64,000 bases of DNA from an uncultured Olsenella sp. (lineage in GTDB: Bacteria > Actinomycetota > Coriobacteriia > Coriobacteriales > Atopobiaceae): the NCBI GenBank assembly GCA_949290055.1, contig CASEQJ010000006.1, forward strand, positions 1-64,000, given 5' to 3'. Each line of letters begins with the position of its first letter. The first letter of the stretch is position 1. This document shows, piece after piece, positions 43,318 to 52,514 of the stretch. A program made the position numbers and the translations under genes. The notes below the pieces were generated by a model that was not told where the DNA came from, made no database searches, and worked only from the letters and a program-made list of their open reading frames with translations.

Positions 43318-44175
43318 CTAGAACGCGGCCTGGACGGAGTCGCCGAAGGTCTCCTCGAGGTAGGCCTTGAAGTCGTCGGTGGTGAGCACGGCCACGAGCG
43401 CCGCGATCTTCTCGTCCTCCGCCTTGTCGGGCGTGGTCACGATGACGTTGGCGTACTCGTTCTTGATGACGTCGGAGTCGGCGCTCTCCTGGGCCACGGC
43501 GTCGGCCAGCGTGAGGCCCGCGTCGATCGCGTAGTTGCCGTTGATGACCGAGAAGTCGGCGTCGGCGAGCGTGGAGGGCAGCATGGCCGCCTCCTGCTCG
43601 ATGAACTCGACGCTGTGCGGGTTGTCCACGATGTCGTTGGGGGTGGCGGTGATTCCGGCGTCCTCGGAGAGCGTGATCACGCCCTGGTCCTGGAGCAGCA
43701 GCAGCGCGCGGCCCTCGTTGGTGGCGTCGTTGGGGACGGTGATCGTGGCGCCGTCGGAAATGGCGGAGAGGTCGTCGGACTTGCCGGCGAAGACGCCCAT
43801 GGGCTCAAAGTGGATCTTGCCCACGCTCACGAGGTCGGTGCCGTTCTCCTCGTTGTAGTTGTCGAGGTAGTTGAGGTGCTGGAAGTAGTTGCAGTCAACC
43901 TCGCCGGAGGTGGTGTCCTGGTTGGGAAGAATGTAGTCGGTGTACTCCTTGACCTCGAGCGTGATCCCCTGCTCGGCCAGAAGCGGCGCGGCAAAGTCGT
44001 TCAGGATCTCGGCGTGAGGGCTGGGACTCGCGGCCACGGTGAGGGTGGCGGTGGCCTCCTCACCAGCGGCGTCGTCGGAGCCGGAGCCGCCGTTGCCGCC
44101 GCACGCGGCGAGCGCGGAGGTGGCGAGAAGGGCGGTGGCGGAGAGCAGGGAGCGACGGGTGACGTTACGAGACAT
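43318..44175 (-). CDS. metQ: methionine ABC transporter substrate-binding lipoprotein
   Basis: A 285-residue NlpA/MetQ lipoprotein. It has a twin-arginine-like start (RRSLLSATAL), a lipobox (SALAAC) and the family body (LEVKEYTDYILPNQDTTSGEVDCNYFQHLNYLDNYN). It captures methionine for MetI-MetN. It is the last gene of metN-metI-metQ, 58 bases after metI. The whole operon lies behind a methionine-rich leader peptide. Confidence 0.94.
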   Translation of the reverse strand: MSRNVTRRSLLSATALLATSALAACGGNGGSGSDDAAGEEATATLTVAASPSPHAEILNDFAAPLLAEQGITLEVKEYTDYILPNQDTTSGEVDCNYFQHLNYLDNYNEENGTDLVSVGKIHFEPMGVFAGKSDDLSAISDGATITVPNDATNEGRALLLLQDQGVITLSEDAGITATPNDIVDNPHSVEFIEQEAAMLPSTLADADFSVINGNYAIDAGLTLADAVAQESADSDVIKNEYANVIVTTPDKAEDEKIAALVAVLTTDDFKAYLEETFGDSVQAAF

Positions 44176-44233: not shown

Positions 44234-44917
44234 CTAGCTCTGGGTACGGTGGTCCACGCGGCGCGCCGCGAGGTCGCAGACGCTCTGAATCGCCTGGACG
44301 ATCACGACGAGCACGATCACGGCAACGACCATGACCTCGTCGACGCGACGGTAGTAGCCGTAGCGCACGGCAATGTCGCCGAGGCCGCCCGCGCCTATGG
44401 CGCCGGCCATGGCGGTGTAGCCGAGCACGGCGATCAGCACGACGGCCACGCCGCGCACGATCGAGGGCAGTGCCTCGGGCAGAAGCGCCGAGAAGACAAT
44501 GCGCGGCACGCTGGCGCCGCAGGCCTCGACAGCCTCCACGCTCTCGCGCGGGACCTCGGCGAGCGACTGCTCCACCATGCGCGCAATGAAGGGCGTGGTG
44601 GCCAGCACGAGCGGGGGAATAATGCCCGCAAGGCCGGAGGCGGTGCCCATGACCAGCCGCGTGAACGGGATTATGAACACCATGAGGACGATGAACGGGA
44701 AGGAGCGCAGAATGTTGACCACCCAGCCGAGCACGGCGGAGAGCACCGGCATGGGACGCAGCGACCCCGGCGCGGTGAGGTAGAGCACCACGCCGAGCGC
44801 GAGGCCAAGGACGTAGGAGATCGCCGTGGGCACGAGCACCATGACGATCGTGGAGAGCGTGCCCTCGGCGAGCAGCTCGCCGTACTCGGCGAGGAAGGCG
44901 TTCACGAAATCAGGCAT
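44234..44917 (-). CDS. metI: methionine ABC transporter permease
   Basis: A 227-residue permease with five membrane segments and the coupling-loop sequence EVPRESVEAVEACGASVPRI of MetI proteins. The ATG at 44917 (MPDFVNAFLAEYG) has AGAGGG at good spacing and overlaps the metN stop by 8 bases; an upstream TTG at 44926 is less likely. It works with MetN and MetQ in methionine import. Confidence 0.93.
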   Translation of the reverse strand: MPDFVNAFLAEYGELLAEGTLSTIVMVLVPTAISYVLGLALGVVLYLTAPGSLRPMPVLSAVLGWVVNILRSFPFIVLMVFIIPFTRLVMGTASGLAGIIPPLVLATTPFIARMVEQSLAEVPRESVEAVEACGASVPRIVFSALLPEALPSIVRGVAVVLIAVLGYTAMAGAIGAGGLGDIAVRYGYYRRVDEVMVVAVIVLVVIVQAIQSVCDLAARRVDHRTQS

Positions 44918-45659
44918 CCCAATCAACCCTCTCGAGAAGTACCTTGGCGGCCTGGGACTGGGGGTCAGCGAAGACGTCCGCCACGCTCCCCCGCTCCACG
45001 ACGTGGCCGTGCTCGAGCACCACCACGTTGCGGCAGATCTTCTCGACCACGCCCATGGAGTGGGTGATCACAATGACCGTGACGCCGGTCTCGCGGTTGA
45101 TCTGGCGCAGGAGCTTGAGGACGGTGTTGGTGCTCGCCGGGTCGAGGGCGCTCGTGGCCTCGTCGCAGAGAATGTACTCGGGGTCGCACGCGAGCGCGCG
45201 GGCAATGGCCACGCGCTGCTGCTGGCCGCCGGAGAGCTGGCTGGGGTAGGAGTCAGCGCGGTCGCGCAGGCCCACCATGTCCAGCAGCTCGAGCGCACGC
45301 TCGCGGTTGGCCGCCGTGACGCGGCCGGTCGCCGCCTTGTACGGGAAGCACACGTTTGCGAGCACCGTCTTCTGGGCGAGAAGCCCAAAGTTCTGGAAGA
45401 TCATCGCCACACGGCGGCGGTACGCGCGAAGCGGCGCGCCCGTGAGGCCCGTGACGTCCTGGCCGTCCACGAGGATCTGGCCGGAATCGGGGCGCTCGAG
45501 CAGGTTTATGCAGCGCACGAGCGTGGACTTGCCGGCACCGCTCATGCCGATAATGCCCATTATGTCGCCGTCGGCGACGTCAATGGAGACGTCGTCAAGG
45601 GCGTGCGGCGCGTCCGGCGCGCTGCCGTAGGTCTTGGTGAGGTTCTTGATCTGAATCAT
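44910..45659 (-). CDS. metN: methionine ABC transporter ATP-binding protein, without NIL domain
   Basis: A 249-residue ATPase with Walker A (GMSGAGKST), signature LSGGQQQRVAIARAL and Walker B YILCDEATSALDP. Typical MetN proteins have about 340 residues, the extra ~90 being a C-terminal NIL domain that binds methionine and shuts the transporter. That domain is absent here, so transinhibition by that route is not expected. GGAG precedes the ATG. The upstream leader peptide may provide methionine control instead. Confidence 0.93.
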   Translation of the reverse strand: MIQIKNLTKTYGSAPDAPHALDDVSIDVADGDIMGIIGMSGAGKSTLVRCINLLERPDSGQILVDGQDVTGLTGAPLRAYRRRVAMIFQNFGLLAQKTVLANVCFPYKAATGRVTAANRERALELLDMVGLRDRADSYPSQLSGGQQQRVAIARALACDPEYILCDEATSALDPASTNTVLKLLRQINRETGVTVIVITHSMGVVEKICRNVVVLEHGHVVERGSVADVFADPQSQAAKVLLERVDWDA

Positions 45660-45716
45660 GCGCGAGGCTCCGCTCGATGACGTGGACGGGGAGGGCCGCC
45701 TCCCGCCGGAGACGAC
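45660..45716 (-). promoter_or_regulatory. leader hairpins before metN
   Basis: In the metN mRNA leader, GGGAGG and CCTCCC (45689-45694 with 45699-45704) form a compact stem about 30 bases before metN. GGAGAC/GTCTCC (45733-45738 with 45708-45713) forms a competing stem spanning the leader stop. Another stem, GCCGTG/CACGGC, covers 45742-45767. Ribosome stalling at the Met codons could choose among them. There is no T-run. Confidence 0.5.
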
Positions 45717-45833
45717 CTAGTGAAGACGCCCGGTCTCCCCGGCCGTGCGACGTGCGCACGACACGGCAGAGTGCCCGGGCTTGGGCATCTCCATGACCAT
45801 CATCATCGTGATATGTGCGACAGCGCTCTTCAT
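45717..45833 (-). CDS. methionine-rich leader peptide of metNIQ
   Basis: A 38-codon reading frame upstream of metN. It starts MKSAVAHIT, continues MMMVMEM (five Met in seven codons, 10-16) and ends TGRLH with TAG, 57 bases before metN. Met runs of this kind are the hallmark of translation-coupled attenuators for methionine genes. There is no Shine-Dalgarno, but the ATG falls 7 bases after a TAACGT -10 element, so the message is probably leaderless. Expression is inferred. Confidence 0.65.
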   Translation of the reverse strand: MKSAVAHITMMMVMEMPKPGHSAVSCARRTAGETGRLH

Positions 45834-45840
45834 GCTGGAT

Positions 45841-45869
45841 ACGTTAGCAGCGGGTCCGAGCGCGCGCAA
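45841..45869 (-). promoter_or_regulatory. metNIQ promoter, probably leaderless
   Basis: On the reverse strand TTGCGC (45864-45869) and TAACGT (45841-45846) are separated by exactly 17 bases. The leader-peptide ATG begins at 45833, with 7 bases between it and the -10, so transcription would start at or next to the A of ATG. Confidence 0.6.
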
Positions 45870-45897
45870 GAAGCGTTACACGCGCGTGACAAAGGCG

Positions 45898-45945
45898 GGC
45901 CGGCGGTTTTCTTGGCCGGCGGTTTTCTGGGCCGGCGGTTTTCTT
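45898..45945 (+). repeat. three tandem 16-base repeats
   Basis: GGCCGGCGGTTTTCTT occurs three times in direct tandem (45898, 45914, 45930), differing only in the last base of the second copy. It abuts array A2 and lies just upstream of the metNIQ promoter. Confidence 0.85.
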
Positions 45946-46175
45946 CTAAGAATCAGGGACCTTGTCAGGGGCGCTTCTAAGAAATGGCGACCTTGCGCGG
46001 CAGGAGGTACGGATCTTCTAGGAATCGAGGCTCTTGTCGCCAAACGTTCTAGAAAATGTCGGCCTTGCACGCCTGCGGAAGCCCACATGCGCACAAGGTC
46101 CGGGATTCCTAGACGAGTCCCGAACAAGGTCCGGGATTCCTAGAAGCACCCCGAGCAAGGGCGGCGATTCCTAGT
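45945..46175. repeat. phased repeat array A2: four units facing three
   Basis: Forward units (TCTAAGAATC, TCTAAGAAAT, TCTAGGAATC, TCTAGAAAAT, each with a CTTG second half) start at 45945, 45976, 46017 and 46048: steps 31, 41, 31. Inverted units end at 46113, 46144 and 46175: steps 31, 31. The inner span is 66 bases. The outermost inverted unit supplies the TAG stop of the adjacent 46171-46782 gene. Between 45660 and 46170 there is otherwise only the met leader. Confidence 0.85.
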
Positions 46176-46782
46176 CCTTCTGGTGCGCCTGGACAACGGC
46201 GCCGACGACGGCGAGCGCGAGCGTGCCCACGAGAATCGCGGTGCCGTAGGCGGCGGAGAAGTCGCCGCCTATGTAGGCGGACAGCGCGTCGAAGGTGCCC
46301 GTGGCGTCACCGGGAACGACCCGCTCGAGAAGCGCGGGGAAGGCGAGCGCGGCGGCCAGGACGTTGGGCACCACGAACGTGGCGCCGGTCCACGCGGTCC
46401 CAAGGCGCACGGCAAGGTCGGACCAGCGATACGCGGCAAGACCCAGAAGCAGGCCGACCACGACCATGATCACACCGAGGAAGTCCCCGGCCTCCTCCGG
46501 CAGGAGCATGGTCGCCACGAAGCCGAGCGCGGCGCCCGCGGCAAAGCCGACGAGGAAGACGCCTGCCTTGTAGACGAACTTGGAGAGGAGCGCCGCGACC
46601 ACACCGAGCACGGCGGCGATCACGAACGAGAGCGCGGAGCCCTCCGTGGACGACAGCGCAATGTTGAACACGCCGAGAAACACGAGCAGGCCCAGCACCA
46701 CGTAGAAGAGGCGCTTGCCAAAGAAGCAGGCGAGGGCGCCGGCGGCAATGTTCACGAGCAGGTAGACAAGTACGAGTTCCAC
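46171..46782 (-). CDS. polytopic membrane protein (DUF4203-like)
   Basis: A 203-residue protein with about seven hydrophobic segments and glycine-rich helices (GVFLVGFAAGAALGFVATMLL), similar in layout to TMEM198/DUF4203 proteins. The function is unknown. The GTG start at 46782 (VELVLVYLLVN) has GGAGAAG upstream. Its TAG stop at 46171-46173 is the CTAG of a repeat unit. It follows another small membrane protein gene on the same strand by 22 bases. Confidence 0.65.
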   Translation of the reverse strand: MELVLVYLLVNIAAGALACFFGKRLFYVVLGLLVFLGVFNIALSSTEGSALSFVIAAVLGVVAALLSKFVYKAGVFLVGFAAGAALGFVATMLLPEEAGDFLGVIMVVVGLLLGLAAYRWSDLAVRLGTAWTGATFVVPNVLAAALAFPALLERVVPGDATGTFDALSAYIGGDFSAAYGTAILVGTLALAVVGAVVQAHQKD

Positions 46783-52142: not shown

Positions 52143-52514
52143 GCGGCTCCCTTCGAGTGCGGACGAGCGTGACCGGACGTAGGGAGTATACCCGAGCGCA
52201 CCGTTCTTCTCGCCCACGTTGGCTGGAGGCGGCGCTTGCTCCAGGAAATCGCGACCTTGCCCCGAGGCGTTCTAGGAAATCGGGACCTTGTTCGGAGGCG
52301 TTCTAGGAATTGAGGCCCTTGTCGCCAGGATCTCTAGAAAAATGGACCCTTGTCCCGGAAAACTCTAGGAATCGGCGCGCTTGTCTCGTCAGCAGCAAAG
52401 AAGCCGAGACAAGGCCCGCGATTCCTAGAACGGCTGGCGACAAGGACGCCGATTCCTAAAACGTCCCGAAACAAGGGCGCGAATTTCTAGACCTGGACCA
52501 GGACCCCGACCTCG
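52143..52514. other. 372-base gap filled by array A3
   Basis: No protein gene is seen in this gap. It holds array A3 (52240-52491) and a GTTCTTCTCGCCC motif at 52203-52215. Confidence 0.7.
52240..52491. repeat. phased repeat array A3: five units facing three
   Basis: Forward units (TCCAGGAAAT, TCTAGGAAAT, TCTAGGAATT, TCTAGAAAAA, TCTAGGAATC plus ACCTTG-type second halves) start at 52240, 52271, 52302, 52333 and 52364, each exactly 31 bases apart. Inverted units end at 52429, 52460 and 52491, also 31 apart. The inner span is 66 bases, as in A2. It lies downstream of one reverse gene and upstream of another. It is the longest and most regular of the arrays. Confidence 0.9.

Follow-up and report, generated by a model that had tools for sequence, protein, structure and literature searches.

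A short methionine-rich reading frame upstream of metN is best read as part of a methionine-responsive leader-peptide attenuator that would act mainly on metN translation; from sequence comparison we put the probability of this reading at roughly two in three. The element lies on the minus strand of the window (the whole 64,000-nt stretch of DNA analyzed, from an uncultured Olsenella sp., below the host), where a promoter is followed by the Met-rich leader frame and then by metN, metI, and metQ, an operon that, by family matches, would handle the sensed amino acid itself. The coding frame, the promoter spacing, the link to metN, and the helices P1, P2, P3, and P0 were computed. Methionine is awkward for attenuation by a run of codons, since it is also the first residue of every protein; elongator and initiator methionyl-tRNA would be told apart by a leader with AUG as its start and a run of AUG after it.

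The features of the locus are collected in Table 1. The promoter and, shortly before metN, the 38-codon frame containing MMMVMEM, both claimed in the preliminary description, are indeed present, the frame encoding MKSAVAHITMMMVMEMPKPGHSAVSCARRTAGETGRLH; the -35 box is a weak match, while TTGAC(A/G) is frequent among relatives. No plasmid copies of the region were found.

Table 1. Features of the metN leader region (coordinates in the window) and the evidence for each.
Feature	Coordinates	Strand	Evidence
-35 box TTGCGC	45864..45869	-	sequence; relatives have TTGAC/TTGC at similar spacing
-10 box TAACGT, 17-nt spacer from -35, 7 nt 5' of ATG	45841..45846	-	TANNNT 6-8 nt 5' of leader ATG in 83/87 distinct leaders
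Leader ORF (predicted leaderless), 38 codons + TAG stop, ATG at 45833	45717..45833	-	sequence; in-frame length changes in relatives
P0 5' strand, codons 2-6 and Met run	45789..45828	-	permutation tests, window-pair map, predicted fold
Methionine run MMMVMEM, codons 10-16	45786..45806	-	Met share of internal codons; ATG frame counts
Alternative hairpin Pa, UGCCC-AAGCCC-GGGCA	45772..45787	-	sequence; compensatory changes in L097, L104
P1 5' strand GCCCGG	45775..45780	-	covariation, window-pair map
P2, variable hairpin above P1, base CUC/GAG conserved	45735..45771	-	covariation, predicted fold
P1 3' strand CCGGGC	45728..45733	-	covariation, window-pair map
P3 hairpin, 10 bp, GGCG loop, at leader stop codon	45694..45717	-	covariation, window-pair map, predicted fold
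P0 3' strand, including metN Shine-Dalgarno	45664..45693	-	permutation tests, window-pair map, predicted fold
metN Shine-Dalgarno core GGAG	45668..45671	-	sequence; predicted pairing with leader
metN, ABC ATPase, 249 aa, no NIL domain, ATG at 45659	44910..45659	-	sequence, domain matches
metI, permease	44234..44926	-	family match
metQ, NlpA-type binding lipoprotein	43318..44175	-	family match

Upstream regions of relatives were gathered via MetN orthologues. Searching with a covariance model built on the core detected the element in the order; weak cases came in with a broader model, and the genomes of a third family with a pattern search. By our count, about 106 genomes of the order have the element directly 5' of metN: 47 belong to the host's family, 42 to the second, and 17 to the third. 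One third-family stretch ends at the contig end before metN, and in second-family genomes with short flanks metN was recognized by its start sequence only. For divergent matches the context was read, and metN is directly downstream in the true ones. Named matches come from Olsenella, Thermophilibacter, Collinsella, Enorma, and uncultured Coriobacteriaceae or Atopobiaceae; the third family presumably corresponds to Eggerthellaceae. Across 296 sampled genomes of the phylum, no credible match was seen outside the order, the four best of seven outside matches having been read in context.

Several candidates were rejected. Weak model matches inside coding genes were rejected on context; these are a Met-rich stretch of an apparent ffh-type gene (identified from the local sequence) in Collinsella-type genomes and the best four matches outside the order. 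Two pattern matches, in Humidesulfovibrio and Thioalkalivibrio, were put down to chance on taxonomic grounds alone.

Relatives with metNIQ and without the frame, named in the preliminary description as evidence against its proposal, do occur, in few lineages (G035/G093, G108/G109, and G116-G119 keep metN without the leader); they look like cases of loss rather than a refutation. In L033, L183, and L187, metN is present and the leader is absent, apparently lost. L184 and L185 have a -10-like box and an ATG at the expected place before metN, followed by a frame with no Met run; L184 also has bases complementary to the segment that precedes the Shine-Dalgarno sequence.

Comparison of the 87 distinct leaders shows that in 83 an ATG 6-8 nt after TANNNT shares its frame with the last Met codon; in none of the 87 is the sole such ATG out of frame. 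The distance from this ATG to the last Met codon spans 36 to 57 nt in 3-nt steps, and eight distinct leader lengths are observed, all preserving the frame, even though these counts of frames and lengths come from related sequences and the events are not independent. Internal ATG triplets are distributed over the frames as 307/5/0, hence the leader frame is coding; Met accounts for 24.5% of the internal codons. The mRNA is probably leaderless, as the position of the -10 box suggests. The comparison of relatives lends good support to the earlier proposal that metNIQ is linked to a leaderless methionine leader peptide: across the order the same layout is found before metN, with the Met run, whose conservation was to be checked, reduced to just two codons in some relatives that retain the element. 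The position of the leader stop differs among lineages, hence the C-terminal end of the peptide is not conserved. The motif ACAUAY at approximately 45812-45818 (leader nt 16-22) is found at a similar distance from the leader start across families in differing reading frames, and therefore looks like a nucleotide motif rather than a peptide one.

The alignment for P1, P2, and P3 has 94% of cells paired and 123 double-change cells, with covariation as high in 0 of 500 shuffles and slid controls collapsing; it holds three spurious antisense rows and, having been fitted to the model, leans towards it. In an alignment-free window-pair map of 33 lineages, the top rank goes to P3 (z = -11.1) and the next to P1 (z = -7.4); below them comes an antiparallel ladder that joins leader windows to windows of the metN ribosome-binding region (z from -4.5 to -3.0). 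The loop of P3 is of the GGCR type across relatives. Pa begins inside the last Met codon and is mutually exclusive with P1. The predicted fold of the host leader consists of P0, P1, P2, and P3, with the Shine-Dalgarno sequence paired with the leader; its folding energy is modestly better than that of shuffles (z = -1.79).

The strands of P0 co-evolve. In a permutation test with 29 lineages, the native sum is -667 versus -572 (sd 18) for permuted combinations, matched in 0 of 20,000 permutations; double-centred permutation yields 0 of 50,000 (p < 2e-5). Against shuffled ribosome-binding regions, the Stouffer z is -7.6, compared with -1.7, -0.2, and -2.2 for control regions, and the signal is repeated in 10 lineages of the third family (p = 0.0066). 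In the predicted fold of the host, the core GGAG pairs with leader nt 1-48 at 0.58-0.93 per base. P0 is unconvincing in some lineages, e.g., L074 and L097, and a simple calculation of Shine-Dalgarno accessibility with a ribosome-footprint mask gave no net opening (13 of 28 lineages).

In the proposed mechanism, transcription would start at or beside the leader ATG, as the promoter spacing suggests, hence ribosomes would load on the 5' end. With methionyl-tRNA plentiful, the ribosome would pass the Met codons and depart; the leader start and the Met run would then form P0 with the metN ribosome-binding region, turning metN off, and the closed P0 would enclose P1/P2 and P3. With methionyl-tRNA scarce, the ribosome would dwell on the Met run and occupy the 5' strand of P0, leaving the metN Shine-Dalgarno sequence open and metN translated. 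We infer the stalling, this direction of the response, and its level, that is, translation and not transcription. P3 might serve as a scaffold or have a function of its own. Points against this mechanism include the Met run of two codons in some relatives and the pyrimidine/U-rich tail after P3 in the second family. Were the gauge to keep working across the order even where the run has shrunk to two codons, the last Met codon, P-K-P-G, and the P1 stem might form a dedicated pause site, the pause being set jointly by the shortage of methionyl-tRNA and by the nascent chain or the stem; we hold this variant to be quite doubtful.

The same methionine leader peptide might instead control transcription, with P3 (or a structure including it) terminating, or with Rho acting, and stalling altering the choice of hairpins. 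The preliminary description had seen the classical plan of an amino-acid attenuator, with competing hairpins; the hairpins are there, Pa against P1, with compensatory changes in L097 and L104, and P3 is the strongest covarying hairpin. In the Collinsella-type (second) family its stem is followed by the pyrimidine/U-rich CGCCUUYUU, and U-runs are present in L104 and L030. However, no U-run follows in the host leader, in agreement with the absence of a T-run terminator noted earlier, and an intrinsic terminator with a U-tract was not encountered in the host's family (UUUU in 1 of 36). P1 and P3 do not overlap, hence the classical antiterminator is missing, and the pairing of the leader with the ribosome-binding region, the strongest additional signal, would be left unexplained. 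Control at the level of transcription is therefore not the best fit, and we consider it unlikely, though still a serious candidate.

Compared with translational attenuation, two further explanations fare worse. A nascent-chain arrest peptide, in which the conserved M-P-K-P-G rather than hunger for Met codons sets the pause of the ribosome, would account for the persistence of MPKPG where only two Met codons are left, and for its survival through synonymous CCC to CCT changes with compensation in P1 (L101, L106). It is made improbable by the fact that the same nucleotides also build P1 and Pa, and by replacements of K with S, L, or T, of P with L, and of G with E or K (L029, L071, L076, L097, L104). 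A ligand-binding riboswitch for methionine or SAM, with the ORF incidental, would agree with the nearly invariant sequence of P1 and its flanks and with ACAUAY being kept as nucleotides; it is the least probable of all, given the frame distribution of internal ATGs, the lengths changing only in multiples of three, and the frame staying constant up to the core while the position of the stop varies. No Rfam 15 family matches at the gathering score.

A common RNA solution for methionine genes is the SAM-I riboswitch (RF00162), which differs from the present element in being a ligand-binding aptamer with no ORF. A leader upstream of metNIQ, metL, was reported in 2021 in Streptomyces lividans, mapped by RNA-seq in one strain, and proposed to be methionine-dependent (PMC8079986, Table 4), hence there is a precedent for a methionine leader in front of metNIQ. 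As presented in the metL entry, it is likewise a leaderless leader peptide directly upstream of metNIQ, with hairpins and no typical Rho-independent terminator; it differs in the peptide, MSTTSDRTPATEATTTPGARCMCRRMCAF, with two internal Met, several Cys, no Met run, and no MPKPG, and no structure or conservation is reported alongside it (PMC8079986). Another relative is the LEU element upstream of leuA in Actinobacteria, where a run of Leu codons pairs with the leuA Shine-Dalgarno sequence, as proposed here for P0, the differences being leucine and a pseudoknot; for methionine operons of Actinobacteria, the same survey, from 2005, reports no conserved upstream RNA structure (PMC1262725). The closest mechanism is that of the leaderless poly-cysteine attenuators of mycobacteria, described as leaderless short ORFs with a run of the sensed amino acid (PMC9031893, PMC13236596). 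These differ in sensing cysteine rather than methionine and in coming from other bacteria, and no shared sequence was found, apart from a weak match to Ms_AS-8 in a permissive Rfam scan (20.5 bits, cut-off 48), which is seen in the host genome only and in 0 of 19 relatives and is therefore treated as chance. In the poly-cysteine attenuators, according to what Canestrari et al. reportedly described in 2020, the stalled ribosome frees the downstream ribosome-binding site. Leaderless attenuators and the metL leader were thus already known, and new with respect to these precedents are the Met run, the depth of conservation, and a defined fold; a literature search found no description of this element in Coriobacteriales. 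The element would carry the principle of leaderless attenuators over from cysteine to methionine, in a form whose fold is defined, and would provide an entire order of common gut bacteria with a methionine-uptake control element absent from the Rfam library.

MetN of the host lacks the methionine-sensing (NIL) domain, as had been pointed out; the accompanying suggestion that control shifted to the leader after the loss of this domain carries little weight, since a NIL domain is present in only 27 of 397 genomes of the order and several NIL-less metN genes have no leader. NIL loss as the cause of leader control is therefore not supported. Among 25 genomes of the same genus, there were no matches to the SAM-I riboswitch and none to the MetE domain. 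All sampled genomes of the genus encode a protein of approximately 240 aa with a weak match to the MetH activation domain (G000:C27:23216-23551 in the host).

Just 5' of the promoter, at positions 45897-46182, there is a block of short direct and inverted repeats of 31-nt, 22-nt, and 17-nt families. They have cores of the TTCTTAGAA/CCTAG type, and many similar copies are found elsewhere in the genome, including near 52247-52322.
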